A stretch of DNA of 43,810 nt from NCBI GenBank assembly GCA_017535725.1, contig JAFXTO010000037.1:1-43810 (forward strand), given 5' to 3'. Shown here one piece after another: positions 23,138 to 33,847 of the stretch. Position numbers and translations under genes: made by a program. Every line of letters starts with the position of its first letter. The stretch's first letter is position 1. The notes beneath the pieces were generated by a model that was not told the DNA's origin, did not search any database, and saw nothing but the letters and a program-made list of their open reading frames with translations. This DNA is from Bacteroidaceae bacterium. Lineage in GTDB: Bacteria > Bacteroidota > Bacteroidia > Bacteroidales > Bacteroidaceae.

Positions 23138-24649
23138 ATGAGACATTTGGACCGCGCAGAACTCACCCAGCTACTGGATTCTTCCGTCTTTCACCTCATC
23201 GGTGATGTGGCGGACGAAATGGGCATCGAAGCCTACGTGGTTGGTGGCTACGTTCGTGATCTTTTCCTCGAACGACCGTCAAAGGATATCGATGTCGTTG
23301 TCGTTGGAAGCGGCATTGCTGTGGCGGAGGCTGTGGCGAAGAAGATAGGACGAGGTGTCCATGTGAATGTGTACCGAAATTTCGGCACTGCGCAGGTACA
23401 TTGGCATGGACAGGAAGTGGAGTTCGTGGGTGCCCGCAGGGAGAGCTATAATCGTGACTCGCGCAAGCCCATCGTGGAGGATGGTACGCTGGAGGACGAC
23501 CAGCAGCGTCGCGACTTTACCATCAATGCGATGGCGGTCTGTCTGAATAGCTCCCGCTTTGGTGAACTCGTAGACCCCTTCGACGGTGTCTGGGATTTGG
23601 AGGATCGTCTCATTGCTACCCCTTTGAATCCTGATGTGACCTTCTCCGACGACCCGTTGCGAATGATGCGTTGCATCCGCTTTGCTACCCAGCTGAACTT
23701 CGAAATTGAGCCAGAGACCTTCGAGGCTCTGGAACGTAACAAAGAGCGCATCAAGATTATCTCTCAGGAACGTATCATTGACGAAATTCAGAAAATCATG
23801 GCCTCGGACTCACCTGCCCGTGGCTGGGAACTGTTGTTCCAGAGTGGCCTGCTGGAAATCATTTTTCCTGAACTCTATGCACTGCAAGGTATAGAAATAA
23901 TGAACGGGCGCGCGCATAAGGACAATTTCTGGCACACGCTGGAAGTGCTGACAAATGTGGTGAAGGCACAGCGTTTACTTCATGTTGACCATTCATCGTT
24001 GAGCGAAACTTCGGCAAAAGATATAAGCACTCAACGTTCGACGCTTAACGAAAAGGTCCTCTGGCTCCGTTGGGCGGCCCTTCTTCATGACATCGGCAAG
24101 CCAAAGACCAAACGCTATGACCCTGTGCTGGGTTGGACGTTTCACAACCACAATTACGTAGGTGAGAAGATGGTCCCACAGATTTTCCGGCGCATGAAGT
24201 TGCCGATGGACGAGCGTATGAAGTATGTCCAGAAGTTGGTCTCGCTGCACATGCGTCCCATCGTGATTGCCGACGAGGAGGTGACGGACAGTGCTGTACG
24301 CCGTCTGCTCTTCGAGGCTGGCGATGACATTGATGACCTGATGCTTCTCTGTGAGGCTGACATCACTTCGAAGAACATGCAGCGCAAACAACGGTTCCTC
24401 GACAACTTCCAGCTTGTGCGCCGCAAGCTTGTTGACCTCGAGGAACGCGACCGCATCCGTAACTTCCAGCCGCCTGTCAGTGGCGAGGAAATTATGGAAC
24501 GTTTCCATCTACCGCCCTGCCGTGAGGTAGGCACATTAAAGAGTGCTGTGAAGGATGCCATCCTCGACGGAGTTATCCCAAACGAACGTGAGGCAGCTTT
24601 GGCTTTTGTCATTGAAAAGGCCAAAAAAATGGGGCTGAAAGTTGATTGA
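23138..24649 (+). CDS. cca: CCA tRNA nucleotidyltransferase with HD domain
   Basis: This 503-residue enzyme adds or repairs the 3' CCA of tRNAs. The nucleotidyltransferase head shows YVVGGYVRDLFL, the metal-binding DIDVVV, RRDFTINAMA, and DDPLRMMRCIRFATQL. The C-terminal half has an HD-type phosphohydrolase domain (AHKDNFWHTLEVL; ALLHDIGKPKTK). Between these two HD motifs about 25 residues (HVDHSSLSETSAKDISTQRS and a few more, near 282-307) look inserted compared with the usual direct link to LRWAALLHD. They are encoded by sequence with an imperfect inverted pair CGTTGAGCG/CGCTTAACG. The enzyme otherwise looks complete. Confidence 0.93.
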   Translation: MRHLDRAELTQLLDSSVFHLIGDVADEMGIEAYVVGGYVRDLFLERPSKDIDVVVVGSGIAVAEAVAKKIGRGVHVNVYRNFGTAQVHWHGQEVEFVGARRESYNRDSRKPIVEDGTLEDDQQRRDFTINAMAVCLNSSRFGELVDPFDGVWDLEDRLIATPLNPDVTFSDDPLRMMRCIRFATQLNFEIEPETFEALERNKERIKIISQERIIDEIQKIMASDSPARGWELLFQSGLLEIIFPELYALQGIEIMNGRAHKDNFWHTLEVLTNVVKAQRLLHVDHSSLSETSAKDISTQRSTLNEKVLWLRWAALLHDIGKPKTKRYDPVLGWTFHNHNYVGEKMVPQIFRRMKLPMDERMKYVQKLVSLHMRPIVIADEEVTDSAVRRLLFEAGDDIDDLMLLCEADITSKNMQRKQRFLDNFQLVRRKLVDLEERDRIRNFQPPVSGEEIMERFHLPPCREVGTLKSAVKDAILDGVIPNEREAALAFVIEKAKKMGLKVD

Positions 24650-24831
24650 CAGTGCAAAACGCAATTGTTTTTTTCTGACAAAGACTATTTTGTACAGTTT
24701 ATCTAACATTTTCGTCATAAAAACAACGTTTTTGATGCTCTTTTGACCTCTTTTTTTATCTTTTTTATTGAAAACGTGTTGTTTTAAGCTCTTTTAACAG
24801 TTTTTTTTTTCTCTGTCTAATAGATAGTTCC
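24650..24831. other. AT-rich region upstream of the fimbrial operon
   Basis: This strongly AT-rich region contains two direct repeats, GCTCTTTTGAC near 24736 and GCTCTTTTAAC near 24788, about 51 bases apart. It also has an inverted pair, AAAACAACG near 24719 and CGTGTTGTTTT near 24775. These could be regulator sites for the fimbrial operon, which is an inference. No gene was seen. Confidence 0.4.
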
Positions 24832-24839
24832 TATTTTTG
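24832..24839 (+). promoter_or_regulatory. Promoter -7 element for the fimbrial operon
   Basis: TATTTTTG, followed by AGGCGG, lies 74 bases before the DUF3575 ATG, leaving an A-rich leader. Confidence 0.5.
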
Positions 24840-24913
24840 AGGCGGAAATGAAGCAAAACACGGCTTAGAGCGTGTAAAAGTGATATAAAAACAAGTGATT
24901 TTTAAAAAGTGAA

Positions 24914-25489
24914 ATGATGTTCAAGAAAACAGCATTATTGTTCCTGTTATTTTTGTTCATAGGACATCCGTTATCCTATGGGCAGCATTTCGCCATCAAT
25001 AACAATCTTTTGTTTGATGCGGCGGGTGCTTTGTCAGCAGGCGTTGAAATTCCCTTCTCGAGAAAGACTTCCCTTGAAGTCTATGGCAGCTTGCGCCCTT
25101 GGAAGAGAGCCAGTCAGAACGTTAACAAGCATTGGACTGTCCAAACACAGTTCCGTATCTGGCCTTGTCAGGTGATGAATGGTTTCTTCTTCGGTCCCTA
25201 CGCCCACGTGGGTGAATTTAATTTAGGAAACCAGGATCTGTTTTTCGGCTTGCTCCATAACCTGAGACCCTTCCGTTATGAGGGCTGGTTCGTTGGAGGC
25301 GGCTTGGGAGCAGGTTATCAATTCACCCTGTCGAAGCATTGGAACTTTGGCGTGGAAGCGGGTGTTGGTTATACCTACATTGATTACAGGAAGTACAATT
25401 GTGAATTGTGCGGTGCCCTGAAAGAGGATGACGTACTCCATTATGTGGGTGTCTCACGCCTGGGTCTTAGTTTCATATACCTATTTTAA
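24914..25489 (+). CDS. DUF3575 domain-containing outer-membrane protein
   Basis: The 191-residue protein has a signal peptide (MMFKKTALLFLLFLFIGHPLSYG) and DUF3575 features: INNNLLFDAAGALSAGVEIPF, SLRPW, and alternating beta strands ending in an aromatic residue (SFIYLF), consistent with a small outer-membrane barrel. It has three cysteines, including a CxxC pair NCELC at 163-166. DUF3575 genes commonly open Mfa1/FimA-type fimbrial loci, where the protein is thought to assist outer-membrane steps. It is the first gene of the operon, 18 bases before the DUF3868 gene. Confidence 0.88.
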   Translation: MMFKKTALLFLLFLFIGHPLSYGQHFAINNNLLFDAAGALSAGVEIPFSRKTSLEVYGSLRPWKRASQNVNKHWTVQTQFRIWPCQVMNGFFFGPYAHVGEFNLGNQDLFFGLLHNLRPFRYEGWFVGGGLGAGYQFTLSKHWNFGVEAGVGYTYIDYRKYNCELCGALKEDDVLHYVGVSRLGLSFIYLF

Positions 25490-25507: not shown

Positions 25508-27010
25508 ATGAGTATATCTGTCAATCATATTACGAAAAAGCTGCAAGGAAACGCAGTAAGCAGACAATGGATGTTGTTCTTGCTGCTGTTCATTCAGCTA
25601 CCTGCCTTCGCCTCCACATTGCTGGAGAAAGATCAGAAGACATACGTTTTTGATTATGTGATGTCAATAAAGCGTTCTGCCTTGGCTATTGTGGACAGCA
25701 ATCTGGTTGTCTCACTTCAGCTGACCGCCATCCAGGATGTCCCTGTCCGCCAGTCTGTGATTCTTGCACCGGTGCTGGAGGATACCACTTCTTTACGCAA
25801 TGTGGAGCTGCCTCTGATATTCCTCAACAGCCGTAACCAGCAGATTTATTATGACCGTAACCTCAGGAAGGCATATCCCGATGCTATTTCCGTCCGGAAA
25901 AAGAAGGGTGTAAATCTCGATATCGATTATATTCGTACCGTGAAATACGAACCGTGGATGAAAAATGCCGTTCTGAAGCTGCGCAAGCAGAGTTGTGCCT
26001 GCAGCAACATGAAGAATCGTGGCGAGATAATAGCTGCAACGTTCGAGAAAGAGGAGGTCGCACCGGAGATTCAGCTCTACCCCGTATTCCTTGTGCCGCC
26101 TGCAGACAACTCCGTGAAAGTGCGTGAGGAAAGCGGTTCTGCCTATCTCTGCTTCGTGGTTAACAAGTGGGACATCAAGCCGGATTACATGAGTAACCCT
26201 GTCGAACTGCAGAAGATTCACAATTCCGTCAACCTTGTTAAGAGCGACTCTGACGTGACCATCCGCAAGATGACCATTGAGGGTTTTGCTTCTCCGGAAG
26301 GAACATTCAAGCATAACTTGATGCTCAGTGAGAACCGTACAGAAGCTCTGAAGAACTACCTCTATATGACGAATATCGCAAAGGATATTCCCATCGAGGC
26401 CAGTGGTAAGGGTGAAAACTGGGAAGGCTTCATGAAGAGCCTCAATAGCAGGACTGATATCCCGCAGCACAGCAAACTTCTCAGCATAGCCACCAGTAAT
26501 ATTCCCGTTGATGAGAAGGAGAAACGCATGCGTCGCGAGGCTCCGGAGGGTTATGATTATGTTCTGAAAAACATATTCCCCTCCTTGCGTTGTACGAACT
26601 ATACCGTCATCTATACCGTCAGACCATTTACTCTGGAGGAGTCGGAGCGCGTCTTTGAGACCCGTCCCATTAACCTTAACTTAAATGAGATCTATCGGTT
26701 GGCGGACAAGTATGTCACTGACGAGGAGAAGTATTACTCCATTATCCGCAAGGCATACAACCTCTATCCCAACGACTCGTACATCAACCTCACTTTGGCT
26801 TACCTCGCCCTCAAACGGGGTTCCACAGAAGAAGCCGCAGAATACCTGACTAGGGTGGACGATTGTCCGCAAAAGGTCATGAACCAAGGCATTATCGCAT
26901 ATCTCAAAGGCGATCTCGATCAGGCTATCCGACTCGTCGAACAGGCTCGTCAACAGGGCTTGACTCAAGCTGAGGTCCAACTTCAAGAATTTAATAAACT
27001 TAAACACTAA
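25508..27010 (+). CDS. DUF3868 domain-containing protein with OmpA-like C-terminal domain
   Basis: The 500-residue protein has an N-terminal hydrophobic export signal (about residues 20-36). A DUF3868-type beta-rich region with the segment VVSLQLTAIQDVPVRQSVILAPVL follows, then an OmpA-like peptidoglycan-binding region (MTIEGFASPEGTFKHNLMLSENRTEALKNYL). The C-terminus is helical with TPR-like repeats. Cysteines cluster in SCACSN near residues 161-164. Proteins of this pair (DUF3575/DUF3868) accompany Mfa-type fimbriae and are suggested to anchor the assembly to the cell wall. It lies between DUF3575 and the shaft-subunit gene. Confidence 0.87.
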   Translation: MSISVNHITKKLQGNAVSRQWMLFLLLFIQLPAFASTLLEKDQKTYVFDYVMSIKRSALAIVDSNLVVSLQLTAIQDVPVRQSVILAPVLEDTTSLRNVELPLIFLNSRNQQIYYDRNLRKAYPDAISVRKKKGVNLDIDYIRTVKYEPWMKNAVLKLRKQSCACSNMKNRGEIIAATFEKEEVAPEIQLYPVFLVPPADNSVKVREESGSAYLCFVVNKWDIKPDYMSNPVELQKIHNSVNLVKSDSDVTIRKMTIEGFASPEGTFKHNLMLSENRTEALKNYLYMTNIAKDIPIEASGKGENWEGFMKSLNSRTDIPQHSKLLSIATSNIPVDEKEKRMRREAPEGYDYVLKNIFPSLRCTNYTVIYTVRPFTLEESERVFETRPINLNLNEIYRLADKYVTDEEKYYSIIRKAYNLYPNDSYINLTLAYLALKRGSTEEAAEYLTRVDDCPQKVMNQGIIAYLKGDLDQAIRLVEQARQQGLTQAEVQLQEFNKLKH

Positions 27011-27030: not shown

Positions 27031-28542
27031 ATGTCTCATTCAAGCAAAATCATTTATGCGCTGCTGTTAACCAGTGCCATGCTGTGTGGTTGCAGTCAGC
27101 GCGAAGACCTCGAAGTCATTGACAGCAATGAATCCGTTCCTCAGGAGAATGCCAGCGTTGTTTTCCGTATCAAGACCAACACCTCTACTCCCTCACTGAT
27201 AACTCGTAGCGTGGAAGACAGTTATTCTCATGAGCCGGGAACTGAGACTGAGTATCAGGTGAACAACGCCCGGGTATATCTCTACGATGCTCCCACTAAG
27301 CTCTTTGTAAAGTCTGTCCTGCTTAAGAATCTGAAACTTGTAAGTGAAGACGTGCCGAATAACATCGTCTACGAAACAGAACACGTGTTGGTGCCACAGG
27401 GAACCTACGACATCTTCGTCATGGCAAATACCGACATACAGATTTCTAAGACGAACGAGGCGGATTTCCTGGCATCCATCGACAGTATAACTTACCTCAA
27501 GGGCCGTGTGTACACAGAGGATATTTCCAAAGGTATCGTCATGACGAACCGTGCTTCTGACAATACCAACGTCCTCATTGAAAAGGGTTCGGATGATGCC
27601 GACAACGTCGTTAATATTACGCTGGAGCGTGTCCTCGCCCGCATCGATGTTGCAAGGAGTAACCAGACGTACGCCTTGACCGATAAGAACAGTCAGCAAT
27701 ATGCGACTATCACCCTGGATGGATACTACATCGTCAACCTGCCCAAATATTATTATCCTTACCGCCACGTCGCCGTGTTGACATCCATGAACGTACCCGC
27801 CTGGAGTCTTCCCGAGAACTACAGCAATGTGAGTGATGTCAACGGTTATGTGATTGACCCCTATTTCTTCAAGAAGACGATTGATGCGACAAGTTTCAAG
27901 AATGGCGATAGTTACTATGAGTATTTTCTTGGAAACCTCGCTGAAGGAAATAACATTTCTTGGACGACGTTCAAACCGGCTGCCTCAGATGGTACTCCGC
28001 AGTACAATACGATTTATAGCCCCGAGAACTGCATGTTCGCTCCCGCTCAGAAGAACGGCTACAGCACTGGTGTTGTCTTCCGTGCCAAAGTGGATCCCTA
28101 CAATAGCGTCTATACTCTCTCAAATGGCTCGTTGGTATTACTCACCGACAAGACAAAATATCCAGAGGTAATCTATTACTTCAACTACAAGTTCTATGAC
28201 ACGCCAGAAGCATTGGCTGCTGCCATTGGTGTTGGATCTATCAGCGGAGTCAACCTGGATTTGTATAAGGCCAAGAAATTTGAGAAGACTAATGATGGTT
28301 ATCGTTGCTACTACAACTACTGGATTCGTCACCTGGACAACAACAAGTCCAACGTCATGGGCGTGATGGAGTTCGCTATTGTACGCAACAACCTCTATAA
28401 GATTCTTGTTACTAATGTGTCAGGTCTTGGGTATGAGGAAATTCCTACCGATCCCGATACCCCAGACGAAGGAGAAACCTACCTTAAAGTTGTGCTTAAC
28501 GTGAAGCCATGGATTATAAGAGACCTACATATCGTGCTTTGA
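27031..28542 (+). CDS. Mfa1-like major fimbrial subunit (fimbrillin lipoprotein)
   Basis: The 503-residue protein starts with a lipoprotein signal ending LCGC (Cys21). It has the type V pilin layout: an N-terminal strand region (ASVVFRIKTNTS), a possible trypsin-like cleavage Arg at about residue 59 (LITR-SVED), the N domain with VYLYD and YDIFVMAN, and the C domain with VEVIYYFNYKFYD-like and WIRHLDNN segments. It ends with the terminal donor-type strand YLKVVLNVKPWIIRD. Such pilins are lipid-anchored, cut at an Arg, and polymerise by strand exchange. Two mature cysteines (334 and 426) may form a disulfide. It overlaps the downstream anchor gene by 34 bases. Confidence 0.88.
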   Translation: MSHSSKIIYALLLTSAMLCGCSQREDLEVIDSNESVPQENASVVFRIKTNTSTPSLITRSVEDSYSHEPGTETEYQVNNARVYLYDAPTKLFVKSVLLKNLKLVSEDVPNNIVYETEHVLVPQGTYDIFVMANTDIQISKTNEADFLASIDSITYLKGRVYTEDISKGIVMTNRASDNTNVLIEKGSDDADNVVNITLERVLARIDVARSNQTYALTDKNSQQYATITLDGYYIVNLPKYYYPYRHVAVLTSMNVPAWSLPENYSNVSDVNGYVIDPYFFKKTIDATSFKNGDSYYEYFLGNLAEGNNISWTTFKPAASDGTPQYNTIYSPENCMFAPAQKNGYSTGVVFRAKVDPYNSVYTLSNGSLVLLTDKTKYPEVIYYFNYKFYDTPEALAAAIGVGSISGVNLDLYKAKKFEKTNDGYRCYYNYWIRHLDNNKSNVMGVMEFAIVRNNLYKILVTNVSGLGYEEIPTDPDTPDEGETYLKVVLNVKPWIIRDLHIVL

Positions 28543-29504
28543 AGCATTTATTTTCCATAGTATGCATCTTGGCAATGGTGTCCTGCACGTGGGTGAAGGA
28601 CGACACTGACGACTGCCCCTACGGTTTTTGGCTCAAACTGCACTATTCCTACAACATCCTTGATGTGGAAGCAGCGCCAAAATACGTGCAGGATGCGTAT
28701 GTCTATGTCTATGATGCCGATGGAAAATATATCAAGCGCATTTTCGCAACTCAGGATGCCCTGAAGTCCGATAACTATAAGGTTCGGGTGGAAGGACTCC
28801 CTGAGGGAGATTATCAGTTTGTGGTGTGGAGTGGAATTGGCAACAGTGAGTATGCTGTCTCAAGCGATACCCAGATGTTTGATGACTTCCGTATCTCGCT
28901 GGTAGGAGCCGATGCCGGGTATTCCCAGGAACTGCCTGACCTCTACTATGGCTACCTGCCAAAGGTTCATTTCGACGATTCGTATGCTACTTACGATGTT
29001 GAGTTGATGAAGAACACCAATCAGTTGTCATGTCTCGCGGTGGCCTTGTCCGACGATACGGAAATGAACCCCGATGACTTCGACATGAGAGTCGTTACTG
29101 CCAATGGTACGATGGATGCTCGCAATCAACTGGTGTCTGATGCCGAAATCACTTACACGCCTTTTGTTAAAGACTCCGTTACGTTCGAAGATGTGGACTA
29201 TGGTACACTGCATGGTGTCCAGTTCAGTATTTCTACGTTACGACTGCTGAAAGATACAGACTGCCGTGTCATCCTCGAGAGAAAGAGTTCGGGCCAGAAT
29301 GTATTCAATGTTTCCATTCCGGAATATATTGGTATGATAGGCTCTCTCTATACGAATCTCGGCCGTAAGCTTACTGTCCAGGAATATCTCGACAGGCAGG
29401 ACTTCTACACCATTGTGTTCTATCTCTCAGGAGATTTGGATAAACTGCTCCAGTTGCGGGTGAATAGCTGGCGACTGAGATCTATCAACCACTTAAAACT
29501 CTGA
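28509..29504 (+). CDS. FimB/Mfa2-family fimbrial anchor lipoprotein
   Basis: The 331-residue product has a lipoprotein signal (ILAMVSC, Cys26) followed by the family pattern DDTDDCPYGFWLKLHYSYN, typical of Mfa2/FimB anchors, which stay in the outer membrane and terminate and tether the fimbria. Further strands (YVYVYDADG, FVVWSGIGN) fit two beta-sandwich domains. ATG 28509 lies inside the end of the shaft gene, in another frame, so translation of the two is likely coupled. The stop is followed after four bases by the TTG start of the thioredoxin-fimbrillin gene. Confidence 0.87.
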   Translation: MDYKRPTYRALKHLFSIVCILAMVSCTWVKDDTDDCPYGFWLKLHYSYNILDVEAAPKYVQDAYVYVYDADGKYIKRIFATQDALKSDNYKVRVEGLPEGDYQFVVWSGIGNSEYAVSSDTQMFDDFRISLVGADAGYSQELPDLYYGYLPKVHFDDSYATYDVELMKNTNQLSCLAVALSDDTEMNPDDFDMRVVTANGTMDARNQLVSDAEITYTPFVKDSVTFEDVDYGTLHGVQFSISTLRLLKDTDCRVILERKSSGQNVFNVSIPEYIGMIGSLYTNLGRKLTVQEYLDRQDFYTIVFYLSGDLDKLLQLRVNSWRLRSINHLKL

Positions 29505-29508
29505 AGCT

Positions 29509-31389
29509 TTGAAACGACACTGGAAAGCATATTGTGTATCGCTGTTTCTGTCTTGCTTCGTTGTCATTCTGGCGTCATGCCAGGGTGACAGCGAGGAGGC
29601 AGGCACCCCGACGACAGCGATCAACGTCGGTGATCTCATTCCTGACTTCACGCTGGCTGGTTCCAACGGGAATAGCTTTTCATCCTCCTCGTTGAAGGGA
29701 CAGGTCTATATCTTGAACTTCTTCGATACGGGATGTCCCGACTGCCGGCAGGAGCTGCAGGTGTTGCAGCAAATCTTCGACAAGTATGAGGGGATGGTGC
29801 CGTTGCTCAATGTACCCAGAAGCCAGACCAAGGAGGAGATTCAATCGTATTGGGACCAGGCAAATTTGACTTTGCCTTACTATATACCCAATGACAAGAA
29901 TCTCTACTACAAGTTTGCTTCAAGGACAATCCCCCGTACTTATGTTGTTGACAGCGACGGTATCGTTCATGCAGCCTTCGCGGATTCCCCCGTGGCAGAC
30001 TATGATACGCTCGATGGCCTCTTGGAACAACTGCTGGAAAATGCCCCCGATAACAAAGGTACTGTAAGACTATCCATGAAATTGAGGGTTCCAGGTGCAC
30101 CTTTTAAAGCGGGGAGTCTTCTCAACAACGAATCTGTCATCACCAAACTTGACATCTGGTTCTTTGAATCAGATACCAAGGCGTTCTACAGTAAGGCTGA
30201 AATAGAAAACTTTCAAAGAGCAGAAATCTCTACGGATGGCTATTATGACATCACGTATAGTTTCTATGATTTGAAAATTCCTGTTGGAGTGTATGACATC
30301 TTTACCATCGCCAACTATTACGACCATAGTATTGATTCGATAAAGACTGAGGAAGAGTTACTCAACTGGAAGGATTGCCAAACCTATAAAGTGGGTATGG
30401 GTGCTAATATCCCAGACGAAGGGGCTGTGATGACGAATCGTGCCACCTCTTTGCTGGGTATCGATCTGGTTCCGTATAAAAATCATTATTATGAATTGAA
30501 GGTGGAATTGGAACGCGTGATGGCAAAGCTGCAGATAGGAGTTAAAACGAACTCCTTCGTGCTGAGGCACGAAGCAGAGCAGTATGCTACTATCAATATC
30601 ACGAACTACAAATTGGTCAACCTGAACGCCTGCTACTACCTTTTCCAGCACGTGGATAATCTGCCTGAATTCAAAGAACGTACATCGTTCGTCATGCCGG
30701 ACAATTTCCGCGAATATACCGATGCAGGTCAGGAGTATGTGGTGGATCCGTTGTTCTATGAGAAACGGCCGAATAGTGTGGATATGGCTTCGTGTGCCAA
30801 GCGTTATGTGTCGTGGTATGGGGACTTCAATACAGATAACTTTGCATCCATGCCTTCGGCAGGTTACTTTGGAAATGTCTATATCCTCGAGAATACCTCT
30901 TTTAGGTCGAGCCAGAAGAACGGCTATTCACCGGGCATTGTCTTCAAGGCGGCCGTCAGTCCTGTCTCTGTTAATATCTACGATTCAAGAACAGATAACG
31001 TGACAGGGGAAACACGTCCAGGCTTTTGGCCTGATGTCATCTATCTGTACAACTTCAAATTCTATGGCTCTTTAAAGGCTATCAACCTCGATTCAGGAAT
31101 GACGCTGAACGAAGTTGACAACTATACGGATGCTGATTTGATGGCCAAGGGTATCAAAAGGTGCGTGTTCAATATGGGTGTCTATGAGACGTATTACACG
31201 TATTGGATACAGCATCGTCAGAAAGAATCTGAAATGGGTCCGATGAAATATGGCATTATCCGGAACAACCACTACGTGTTGAGTGTTGACGATGTCACAG
31301 GCCTTGGCTATAGCGTTATTACCCCTGATGTCATGAGGGATAACTATCCCAATTCCTTCACGGATGTGAAAGTTTCTGTCACTCCATAG
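29509..31389 (+). CDS. Thioredoxin (TlpA-like)-fimbrillin fusion lipoprotein
   Basis: The 626-residue protein starts at TTG (MKRHWKAYC), the only start that keeps the lipoprotein signal (VVILASC, Cys24). Residues about 37-190 form a TlpA/AhpC-type thioredoxin domain: VGDLIPDFTLAGSNGNSF, FFDTGCPDC (Cys76/Cys79) and RTIPRTYVVDSDG with the cis-Pro loop. Residues about 195-626 form a fimbrillin domain clearly related to the shaft subunit in this operon, sharing YDIFxxAN, VMTNRA, LERVxAxxxxx, QYATI, QKNGYSxGxVFxAxVxP and IRNNxYxLxVxxVxGLGY. The C-terminus stops after VKVSVTP, where the shaft continues into PWIIRD. I infer a surface-exposed minor or tip subunit with a redox head. Confidence 0.85.
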   Translation: MKRHWKAYCVSLFLSCFVVILASCQGDSEEAGTPTTAINVGDLIPDFTLAGSNGNSFSSSSLKGQVYILNFFDTGCPDCRQELQVLQQIFDKYEGMVPLLNVPRSQTKEEIQSYWDQANLTLPYYIPNDKNLYYKFASRTIPRTYVVDSDGIVHAAFADSPVADYDTLDGLLEQLLENAPDNKGTVRLSMKLRVPGAPFKAGSLLNNESVITKLDIWFFESDTKAFYSKAEIENFQRAEISTDGYYDITYSFYDLKIPVGVYDIFTIANYYDHSIDSIKTEEELLNWKDCQTYKVGMGANIPDEGAVMTNRATSLLGIDLVPYKNHYYELKVELERVMAKLQIGVKTNSFVLRHEAEQYATINITNYKLVNLNACYYLFQHVDNLPEFKERTSFVMPDNFREYTDAGQEYVVDPLFYEKRPNSVDMASCAKRYVSWYGDFNTDNFASMPSAGYFGNVYILENTSFRSSQKNGYSPGIVFKAAVSPVSVNIYDSRTDNVTGETRPGFWPDVIYLYNFKFYGSLKAINLDSGMTLNEVDNYTDADLMAKGIKRCVFNMGVYETYYTYWIQHRQKESEMGPMKYGIIRNNHYVLSVDDVTGLGYSVITPDVMRDNYPNSFTDVKVSVTP

Positions 31390-31480: not shown

Positions 31481-33847
31481 TTACTTGCGTTTCTTGGTGC
31501 CCTTGCCTTTCTTGTTGGCCTTCTGTGCAGTCAGGTCGAGCACTCGGATGTTACGGAGTTTCAGGCCTTCTCCGTGTCCGCAGAAGCAGATGAGGCCGTC
31601 GGTGTTGAAGAGGCCGGGATGGCTCTGGTGGTCAACGGTGTAGGGGTTGGGCTTTCCTTCCTCGGGAGCCATGTTGTGTCCCTGACAGGCTTCGCGGATA
31701 TTGCCGTCCACGAGTACTTCGCCGTTCAGGGTGACGGTGATGTGATCTCCCTCTGCCCGGATTTCCTCGTAGTTCCATTCTCCCAGCGGCTTGTGCTTGT
31801 AGCGTTTGGCAGGAATGATTCCGTAGACTGAGCCGTGAACCTGATACTCACGCAGGCCCTTGTAGATGGGATCGTCGTGGTCGAGGATTTGGATTTCCAT
31901 ACCTTCGTAGGCTGCATCAACGCCCTCCCGGGTTCGGATGCCGACTCCATTATTGATACCTGGGCGCACGAAGCAGAACTCGAATCGGAAGACGAAGTCG
32001 GAATATTTCTTCGAGGTGTAGAGGTTTCCCTCCGAGCCATAGTGTGCGCTGACGTAGATATTGCCGTCGATGGGCACGTAGTCCGTCTTGTTGCCTAACC
32101 AGTTGTCGAGGCTTACTCCGTCGAAGAGGAGTTCAAAGCCTTCTGCCTTCTCCTCGTCGGTCAGTTCGGCCGTGGGTCGGGCGATGGCGTTGGGGTCGTC
32201 GATGATTTTGGGCAGGATGGTGTTCACCTGGTCCACGGCGTAGCCTGCGTCGGCATTCGATGCGGCGTGTGCCTTGAATACCTCCTGAGCCTTCAGCAGC
32301 ATCTGTCGTACGTGGGCGCCTCGCTGCATGGGTTCGTTCTTCTCGATGAGGGTGGTCACGGCGTATGCGGCAGCAAGGTCGTTATCCTTCTTTTCGAGGT
32401 AGTTGGCCGCGAGATTCAGAGCAGGCTCATTGTTCAGGGTGCCGAGGGCACTGAGATAGCTGTTAGCGACCTGTGCCGAGGGTTGCATTTCCAGGGCCTG
32501 CTTGTAGAGCTGGTACTTCTGCAGGCTGGGCAAACTGGCTTTCTTCGTCAGGTCGAGTGCCCGTTTGAGGTATTTGTCGCGTTCTGCGGCATTGGTGCTG
32601 GCGAGTTCATACAGTGGGGATACGACCTCTGCCTTCTCCACTTTCAGCAGGGCTGCAGTTGCTTCCTTCTTATTGGCTCCCTCCTTGGCTGCAGCCACGA
32701 GCTGGAGGATGTCGTCCTGCGAGGCGCGCTGGGCCATCAGTCCGTAGTAGTTCTCGGGATAGGCCTGGAAACGCTGTAGCAAGTCGGGGTACTGCTCGGC
32801 GGTCACGATTTCTGCCAGGCTCTGCACGGCGGCATAATGTACTCCGTCCTTGCCGATGAGCTGTGTCAGTGGCTGGTAGGCTTCGTGGATGCGACGTTCG
32901 CCTGCCAATGCCACCACTTCCTTGCTGACAGTTGCGCCCTGGGTCTGCAGGGCGTTGAGGATGCCTTGCTTGATGTCGCCGTTAAAGGCGGTGAGGGCAG
33001 TCCTGGCCTGTGCGGAGTGGGCACCGTTGAGCTGGCTTATGAGTGCGGTCAGCGCATCTGTTCCACCTATGCGGCCGGCGGCTTCTATGGCTGCGGTGGA
33101 GAGCTGTTCGTCGGTAGCAGGGATAGCGGCGACTACGAGTGCGCTCTCTGCGCTGTTGTGGTTGTTGCCTAACCAGCGGATGACATCGGTCTTGGCATCG
33201 GTGGTCAGCTTAGGATAGCTCTTCACTACCTGCTGGTCGAAACCGTCCAGGGCCAGCTCCGTGCCCAGTGCGAGGGCGGTGTTGCGCATCTGGCGGTCGT
33301 CGCTCTTCAGCGCCTTAATGAGCGTTGCGGCCTGTTTTTTTGCGGGCATGTTGTTGATTTTATCCATGAACTCGGCGATGGCGCGTGAGTTCTCGGCCAC
33401 CGTCTTCAGGTCCTCGGTAGCGTGTGCCACCACCTGTTCCTTGGGACTCAGCTTGGCGAGCTGGTCGCGCAGGAAGGTCTTGTTACCTTCGTCGTTGCAC
33501 TTGACGATGGCTGCTTCCAGTCCCTTCTTGACGGCGGCAGCCTGAGCCTCGCGACCCTTCTGGCTGACGTAGCTCGTGAGTCCGTCGATGGCATATTGGA
33601 AGGGCGCGTTCTTGCCCTGGTCAGAAGGACCGAGCATGGCGGCCAGGCTCTCCACGCCCTCGGCGCCCGTGTCGGCGATTTCGCTCATCACTTGTTCCAG
33701 GGTCTCCAGATTCGGTGCCGGCAGCTGAGCCAGGCCGTCGGCGATGATGGTGCTGGCCACGCGGTTGCGGCTGTCCTGAGCCGTGGCGGTGATGTTCAGG
33801 CCAATCACCACGGCCAGCAGTAGGCTAAAATATCTAAGATGTTTCAT
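31481..33847 (-). CDS. Secreted HEAT-repeat protein with C-terminal DUF1080 (3-keto-glycoside hydrolase-like) domain
   Basis: The 788-residue protein has a signal peptide (MKHLRYFSLLLAVVIGLNITATAQ) and a long alpha-helical HEAT/Armadillo-like region to about residue 560 (for example DVIRWLGNNHNSAESALVVAA; IEAAGRIGGTDALTALI). The C-terminal domain is DUF1080: EGFELLFDGVSLDNWLGN, GEGNLYTSKKYSDFVFRFEF, NNGVGIRTREG, EIQILDHDDPIY. It ends in a Lys-rich tail. DUF1080 proteins hydrolyse 3-keto-glycosides in the Bacteroides keto-glycoside pathway. The adjacent Gfo/Idh/MocA oxidoreductase fits the oxidation step of that pathway. Confidence 0.88.
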   Translation of the reverse strand: MKHLRYFSLLLAVVIGLNITATAQDSRNRVASTIIADGLAQLPAPNLETLEQVMSEIADTGAEGVESLAAMLGPSDQGKNAPFQYAIDGLTSYVSQKGREAQAAAVKKGLEAAIVKCNDEGNKTFLRDQLAKLSPKEQVVAHATEDLKTVAENSRAIAEFMDKINNMPAKKQAATLIKALKSDDRQMRNTALALGTELALDGFDQQVVKSYPKLTTDAKTDVIRWLGNNHNSAESALVVAAIPATDEQLSTAAIEAAGRIGGTDALTALISQLNGAHSAQARTALTAFNGDIKQGILNALQTQGATVSKEVVALAGERRIHEAYQPLTQLIGKDGVHYAAVQSLAEIVTAEQYPDLLQRFQAYPENYYGLMAQRASQDDILQLVAAAKEGANKKEATAALLKVEKAEVVSPLYELASTNAAERDKYLKRALDLTKKASLPSLQKYQLYKQALEMQPSAQVANSYLSALGTLNNEPALNLAANYLEKKDNDLAAAYAVTTLIEKNEPMQRGAHVRQMLLKAQEVFKAHAASNADAGYAVDQVNTILPKIIDDPNAIARPTAELTDEEKAEGFELLFDGVSLDNWLGNKTDYVPIDGNIYVSAHYGSEGNLYTSKKYSDFVFRFEFCFVRPGINNGVGIRTREGVDAAYEGMEIQILDHDDPIYKGLREYQVHGSVYGIIPAKRYKHKPLGEWNYEEIRAEGDHITVTLNGEVLVDGNIREACQGHNMAPEEGKPNPYTVDHQSHPGLFNTDGLICFCGHGEGLKLRNIRVLDLTAQKANKKGKGTKKRK

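Follow-up and report, generated by a model that had tools for sequence, protein, structure and literature searches.

A TlpA-like thioredoxin domain fused to a predicted tip subunit of type V fimbriae from some rumen bacteria: a possible cleavable precursor

Introduction

Why should a fimbrial subunit be made with a thioredoxin at its N-terminus? The question is raised by the last gene of a fimbrial operon on a 43,810-nucleotide stretch of DNA from a Bacteroidaceae bacterium (GenBank assembly GCA_017535725.1, contig JAFXTO010000037.1, positions 1–43,810; the whole stretch is called the window below), the genome of which is 2.9 Mb and 76% complete. A preliminary description had read the product of this gene as a TlpA-like thioredoxin joined to a fimbrillin paralogous to the shaft subunit, and had suggested that it either places a redox enzyme at the fimbria tip or base or helps to fold cysteine-containing pilins. 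In the account of P. gingivalis fimbriae in PMC5789003, as far as the portion used here goes, assembly is called an 'enigma', no chaperone- or usher-like helper having been identified. Among the papers listed in literature searches by titles and abstract openings, we found no described pilin with a thioredoxin head.

Results

The frame in question is open from a TTG at 29509 to the stop at 31389 (29509..31389, forward strand), and profile matches and alignment A1 indicate that its product of 626 residues is a thioredoxin–fimbrillin fusion lipoprotein. A signal peptide recognized by eye (29509..29580) leads to the lipobox LASC, the cysteine of which, Cys24, is invariant in all nine rows of A1. 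The predicted thioredoxin domain (residues 40–160; 29626..29988) is matched by PF00578 and PF08534, and contains a CPDC active-site motif (Cys76/Cys79; 29734..29745), conserved as CxDC in the eight thioredoxin-bearing rows. Sequence alignments further place a predicted cis-proline at Pro142, within IPRTY (29932..29934), the cis geometry being that expected of the fold. The Pfam family AhpC-TSA matches residues 40–155 (E 1.8e-14), above its curated cut-off, as do Redoxin and Thioredoxin_8, and the redoxin families match eight of the nine rows, the ninth being L007, which has no thioredoxin. The best solved-structure matches of the head by sequence—3kcm (E 3.3e-13), 5um7 and ResA 4nmu—are all thioredoxins. 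On profile, CxxC motif and predicted cis-proline, the head is assigned to the TlpA/ResA-like thioredoxins, at the superfamily level only, as it scores under the cut-offs of the curated NCBIfam models ResA, TlpA and DsbE (58 versus 170 bits for ResA).

The remainder of the protein (residues 183–626; 30055..31386) carries both profiles of a type V fimbrillin: P_gingi_FimA (PF06321) at residues 196–315 (E 1.4e-4; 22.6 bits, cut-off 21.4) and Fimbrillin_C (PF15495) at 561–626 (E 2.3e-10; 41.2 bits, cut-off 27). At E 0.01, Fimbrillin_C is found in nine of nine A1 rows and FimA in eight. The NCBIfam model fim_Mfa1_fam extends over residues 180–623 (E 2.6e-35); with 122.6 bits the match lies just below the cut-off of 130, so that the fusion is not classed as a major (shaft) subunit of the Mfa1 family. 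The pilin profile also matches the solved structure 4jrf by sequence (E 1.7e-6), a protein treated among the shaft proteins in the section of PMC5789003 on which we draw. Thus, both halves pass Pfam cut-offs within one protein, as had been proposed, and the suggested paralogy to the shaft subunit encoded two genes upstream is borne out by 32% identity over query residues 210–617 (E 3.5e-43).

The fimbrial setting was also confirmed. The operon, all on the forward strand, begins with a DUF3575 outer-membrane-like protein (24914..25489; PF12099, E 2.3e-53) that has a CxxC at residues 163–166, followed by a DUF3868/OmpA-like/TPR protein with a CxC at residues 163–165 (25508..27010), for which the PF00691, PF12984 and TPR matches are all below cut-off and the gene order is the same in relatives. 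Next are an Mfa1-like shaft fimbrillin (27031..28542; NF038041, 212.9 bits against a cut-off of 130; PF15495, E 4.4e-19), with a TR|S loop and a long C-terminal donor strand (KPW...IVL), and an Mfa2-like anchor lipoprotein (28509..29504; PF08842, E 1.7e-54), which matches the solved structures 3gf8 (E 2e-32) and 4qdg by sequence and of which the lipid-bearing C26 as well as C36 and C175 are invariant in all 12 aligned anchors. In seven of nine fusion or tip frames (the window's at 29509, L006, L007, L050, L051, L053 and L068), the mechanically called start is a TTG or GTG a few bases past the anchor stop, which may lower the tip dose through translational coupling. Within 24640–24930 we detected no inverted repeat indicative of an invertible promoter, and neither promoter-like sites (11 versus 10.8 expected) nor terminator-like sites (6 versus 5.6) exceeded their numbers in shuffled sequences. 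The gene behind the operon (31481–33847) is convergent and encodes a HEAT-like region and a 3-keto-disaccharide hydrolase domain.

Ten of the 139 genomes of the genus were matched at E 1e-30: seven have the fusion (G000, G007, G032, G035, G036, G096 and G110, the window's genome included) and three a thioredoxin only (G016, G068 and G091), while L006 provides an eighth fusion. The seven other fusions are 48–55% identical to the window protein. Each of the eight immediately follows the same anchor gene, and six have a complete shaft gene as well; the shaft frame of G036 is shorter (461 residues) and the contig of G032 begins inside the shaft gene. CxDC is retained in all eight fusions and in all 20 listed thioredoxin sequences, solo genes included. 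Over the 28 pairs of fusions, pairwise identity averages 56.9% in the head and 58.5% in the pilin, which gives no clear sign that either of them drifts faster. Two of four relatives are recorded as coming from the rumen, L005 of sheep and L007 of water buffalo, and we take the RUG names of L004 and L006 to denote a rumen origin.

A mis-joined assembly, an objection that the preliminary description had raised against itself, was rejected as very unlikely, the same fusion being present in eight genomes and a 100% identical protein on the separately binned contig L004. L004 and contig 295 of G275 (L023), which both encode this window-identical protein, are binned in a different genus, probably through mis-binning, and both were left out of the counts, as was L005, which we took to be the same contig as that of G036 (6705 bases each, same proteins).

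A sample of 399 genomes from the family yielded two new linked cases, G431 (genus g14) and G340 (genus g21), and the thioredoxin-less tip of G899 came to light when 45 genomes of g14 were searched. The 17 genomes of G340's genus held no further linked case, their other matches being the identical contig of G275 and two thioredoxins only. In the order, profile A1 at E 1e-25 matched 21 of 393 genomes besides the window's own, all over the thioredoxin part only, and the pilin half at E 1e-25 matched none of 384 genomes except the window's. The fusion was not found outside the family in these samples of 393 and 384 genomes. Because the samples overlap, and because no more than three candidates were scored for each genome in the family sample and the order A1 search and no more than four in the order pilin search, rare or diverged fusions may have been missed.

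In the available portions of PMC5789003 and PMC5954841, the P. gingivalis protease Rgp is described as cleaving Mfa1, Mfa3 and Mfa4 in the beta1–beta2 loop, at an Arg that is exposed. The cut subunit loses beta1, and a second subunit is expected to supply the donor strand that takes its place; the identity of that strand is unsettled in both sources. PMC5789003, in the part used, describes the anchor Mfa2 as uncut and Mfa4 as short and without the C-terminal Trp, and the source passages drawn on here report no trimming of the tip protein Mfa5. The fusion has the lipobox signal peptide of a tip subunit and, as in such subunits, no long C-terminal donor strand: all ten tip C-termini read are without the Trp and final strand, whereas a long, PW-containing end is present in 11 of 11 shafts. 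Tips have a beta1-like strand, for example VRLSMKLRV, between thioredoxin and pilin; in the window, alignments A1 and A3 put this putative strand at residues 186–194 (30064..30090), a place corresponding to that in the Mfa proteins as depicted in the excerpted PMC5789003. Of the 12 tips, a number that includes the broken G431 fusion described below, 11 carry a basic residue in the loop that follows, the limits of which were set by eye: nine have Arg, as do all 11 shafts with the loop read; two have Lys, namely G340 and the window, where A1 points to Lys200 (30106..30108) as the candidate processing site; and G096 has neither. The NCBIfam model FimD_tip_adhes matches two of the nine A1 rows (best E 4.2e-13).

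Peptidase searches of the window's own genome, at its 76% completeness, returned one C11 and one C25 peptidase. The C25 match (L113) lies in a frame of 1330 residues, a length close to that of PorU, so that this genome offered no clear candidate for a gingipain-like pilin protease.

Natural variants separate the two halves in both directions. In G340 (L055; genome 59% complete), the gene order is DUF3575, DUF3868, shaft, anchor, thioredoxin lipoprotein, tip lipoprotein; the thioredoxin (172 residues, CPDC) and the tip (494 residues) occupy separate frames that overlap by 14 bases. As each has, by eye, a signal peptide and lipobox of its own, this is more than a broken fusion. Conversely, the tips of L007 and G899 lack thioredoxin; both are encoded behind a shaft and an anchor gene and still have the lipobox, a beta1-like strand and Arg in the loop. 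By eye, L007 (488 residues) has what appears to be the end of the last thioredoxin helix (RLDEILSQV) after its lipobox, as an in-frame deletion would leave, and in G899 (477 residues) about ten residues lead from the lipobox to the beta1-like strand. The fusion of G431 is broken into two frames, with no shaft or anchor within the 17 kb examined; we counted it as one of the 12 tips and used it for the trees, but kept it apart from the eight fusions.

Tip trees were built without the thioredoxin columns; most of their forks are weak and the G340 branch is long. A single clade of thioredoxin-bearing tips was rejected (p 4.9e-5 for tips, 1.9e-6 for anchor plus tip), as was a sister relationship of the two thioredoxin-less tips (p 3.6e-5), and at least two changes of thioredoxin presence are required. 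With the split operon as outgroup, these trees would favour one fusion followed by two losses, and repeated gains are also compatible. The fusion probably arose from two neighbouring genes. In the thioredoxin tree, the G340 protein falls, on a long branch, outside the clade of fusion heads and beside solo genes of g13; its joint clade with the heads was not rejected (p 0.129), so that the split operon is unproven as the source of the fusion.

Six solo thioredoxin genes of g14 and g1, located elsewhere than the operon, share one clade with the heads (support 99/98) and are 50–59% identical to the head. Since a clade of the eight heads by themselves was not rejected (p 0.072), an origin of the solo genes from fusions is only partly supported. 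Three of these loci have weak matches several kilobases away: a distant fimbrillin-like frame about 8–9 kb off in L060 and L061 (25 and 38% identity) and a weak DUF3868 match in L058. The solo gene of G258 and the broken fusion of G431 share a locus, in which 94.7% DNA identity stops where thioredoxin meets pilin and, in G431, starts again 2.9 kb further along. The solo thioredoxin of G245 ends LEGEVNLSMSVEGN, which resembles beta1 of G035; the match is short, and an equally good score was reached by 23 of 5000 shuffles. Two of 187 natural tails reach this score, that of G245 itself and that of G258, where by eye the match runs through the end of the thioredoxin helix. Separately, a thioredoxin lipoprotein gene of G486 (L065, 8097–8615) is the divergent neighbour of a different type V fimbrial operon, possibly by chance, and a similar thioredoxin of G371 is found elsewhere with different neighbours.

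According to the section of PMC5789003 used, the Mfa1–Mfa2 interaction in P. gingivalis needs the Cys54–Cys285 disulfide of Mfa2, so disulfides matter in such fimbriae. Shaft C334 is invariant in 11 aligned shafts, as are anchor C36 and C175 in the 12 anchors, and both sets include two operons with no nearby thioredoxin gene; across these proteins we found no link between the presence of thioredoxin and conservation of the cysteines. The pilin half has one conserved cysteine, C552 (31162–31164; nine of ten tips), with no conserved partner in that half. The CxxC of DUF3575 occurs in all seven listed operons of this type, as well as in G486. In G371 and G463, the first DUF3575 copy carries CxxxC at this place and the second copy neither motif, numbers too small for a conclusion. 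The window's own genome has one DsbD_TM match, a protein that might serve as outward electron carrier.

Discussion

The thioredoxin–fimbrillin fusion, found in some rumen bacteria, is real and conserved and belongs to a known fimbrial system. We favour, with modest confidence and on sequence features, the reading that a type V (Mfa-like) fimbria tip subunit is made here as a precursor, which would be cut to shed its N-terminal, TlpA-like thioredoxin. Signal peptidase II would lipidate Cys24 and, as the lipobox suggests, thioredoxin and pilin would arrive joined at the outer membrane, where a trypsin-like protease would cut the beta1–beta2 loop (at Arg in most relatives, at Lys200 here), as for Mfa1, Mfa3 and Mfa4. 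The cut would open the groove for a donor strand and leave thioredoxin and beta1 on the membrane lipid, and the mature tip would enter the fimbria without thioredoxin; the latter could then act as an outer-membrane thiol-disulfide oxidoreductase, one per tip subunit made, with envelope or fimbrial cysteines such as anchor C36/C175 or the DUF3575 CxxC as candidate clients. Because the thioredoxin is N-terminal to the beta1-like strand, a cut at the usual place would free the tip of lipid, thioredoxin and beta1 together, and since thioredoxin and tip are also found as separate proteins, a cleavable precursor is the most economical reading. The window's Lys in place of Arg, and the lack of either in G096, count against it, and, given that Mfa2 is described as uncut and that no trimming of Mfa5 is reported in the passages used, an uncut subunit is possible.

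If the chimera stayed whole, it could present an active thioredoxin at the fimbria tip, reducing or exchanging disulfides on a surface or on a partner cell. The active-site residues kept in all eight fusions and the short C-terminus, which suits a terminal subunit, are in keeping with this, and the loops of the window and G096 could mean that no cut takes place. However, the thioredoxin precedes the beta1-like strand, and the published model requires this strand to depart if a donor strand is to be taken up; moreover, the lipid of an uncut protein would remain on the membrane, nine of 12 tips have Arg in the loop, and the split and thioredoxin-less relatives are tips that manage without an attached thioredoxin. 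The position N-terminal to the part removed from Mfa1, Mfa3 and Mfa4 (PMC5789003, in the portion used) also makes the earlier suggestion of a redox enzyme at the fimbria tip or base less likely; we rank the tip-mounted enzyme below the cleavable precursor and hold it to be the least probable of the readings considered. We also give little credence to a protein that is never cut and serves as an extra outer-membrane anchor or assembly platform, with the thioredoxin beside nascent pilins: the invariant lipobox cysteine (nine of nine rows) would fit, and Mfa2 is an example of an uncut subunit in the quoted part of PMC5789003, but the operon already has an Mfa2-like anchor, the C-terminus is without the strand that a C-terminal-donor model asks of an anchor, and most relatives have the loop Arg.

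What the thioredoxin does is a separate matter, as the two remaining functional readings are compatible with cleavage. It is plausible, if tentatively so, that the head is a dedicated disulfide catalyst for fimbrial proteins, cut or not. Its operon partners carry conserved cysteines (anchor C36–C175, shaft C334 with C330 or C426, the DUF3575 CxxC), the correct Mfa2 disulfide is called essential for the Mfa2–Mfa1 interaction of P. gingivalis (PMC5789003, in the part consulted), and the oxidoreductase MdbA is required for pilus protein folding in Actinomyces oris (PMC5478893, likewise in part). Yet shaft C334 and the anchor cysteines are also kept by the operons of G371 and G463, which have no thioredoxin gene in the stretches examined. 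Both operons with thioredoxin-less tips likewise have their anchor cysteines in place, and close relatives of the thioredoxin are found at loci without this operon. That the protein helps to fold cysteine-containing pilins, as proposed earlier, is possible; the cysteines lend this no specific support, since those of anchor and shaft are equally conserved in two operons with no thioredoxin gene in the stretch examined and the tip half has a single conserved one. More doubtful is a self-removing redox prodomain, in which the thioredoxin would be exported with each tip, treat cysteines of the anchor, shaft or outer-membrane partners, and then be cut off. That the two halves have no joint function, a general envelope thioredoxin having been captured by the neighbouring tip gene and tolerated, we consider unlikely: thioredoxin and tip do separate both ways in evolution, but the eight fusions have intact active sites and open frames at an identity of about 50%, which suggests lasting selection on both halves.

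A thioredoxin fused to the tip in eight genomes, and separate beside it in one, is a candidate assembly helper in systems related to the P. gingivalis fimbriae, and its fused, split, thioredoxin-less and solo relatives offer natural comparisons for a redox role in assembly. If a self-removing prodomain were at work, it would link the assembly of fimbriae with redox conditions at the cell surface.

Among known systems, the fusion is most readily compared with the tip proteins Mfa3, Mfa4 and FimD, which it resembles in its lipoprotein nature, its FimA and Fimbrillin_C profiles, the position of the gene behind shaft and anchor, the beta1-like strand and mostly basic loop, and a short C-terminus as in Mfa4; it differs from them by a complete thioredoxin domain between lipobox and beta1. 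The head is like the extracytoplasmic thioredoxins TlpA, ResA and CcmG in domain profile, CxxC and cis-Pro loop, and unlike them in its CPDC, in scores well under the NCBIfam cut-offs and in its fusion to a pilin. Mfa5 of P. gingivalis, as described in the portion of PMC5954841 used here, is likewise an accessory protein of fimbriae that carries an additional functional domain, although this is a von Willebrand A domain (vWA) instead of a thioredoxin and the protein is translocated by the T9SS. Finally, MdbA of A. oris (PMC5478893, as excerpted) is also a thiol-disulfide enzyme tied to pilus assembly, a functional analogy only, as MdbA is a separate protein of a Gram-positive sortase pilus system.
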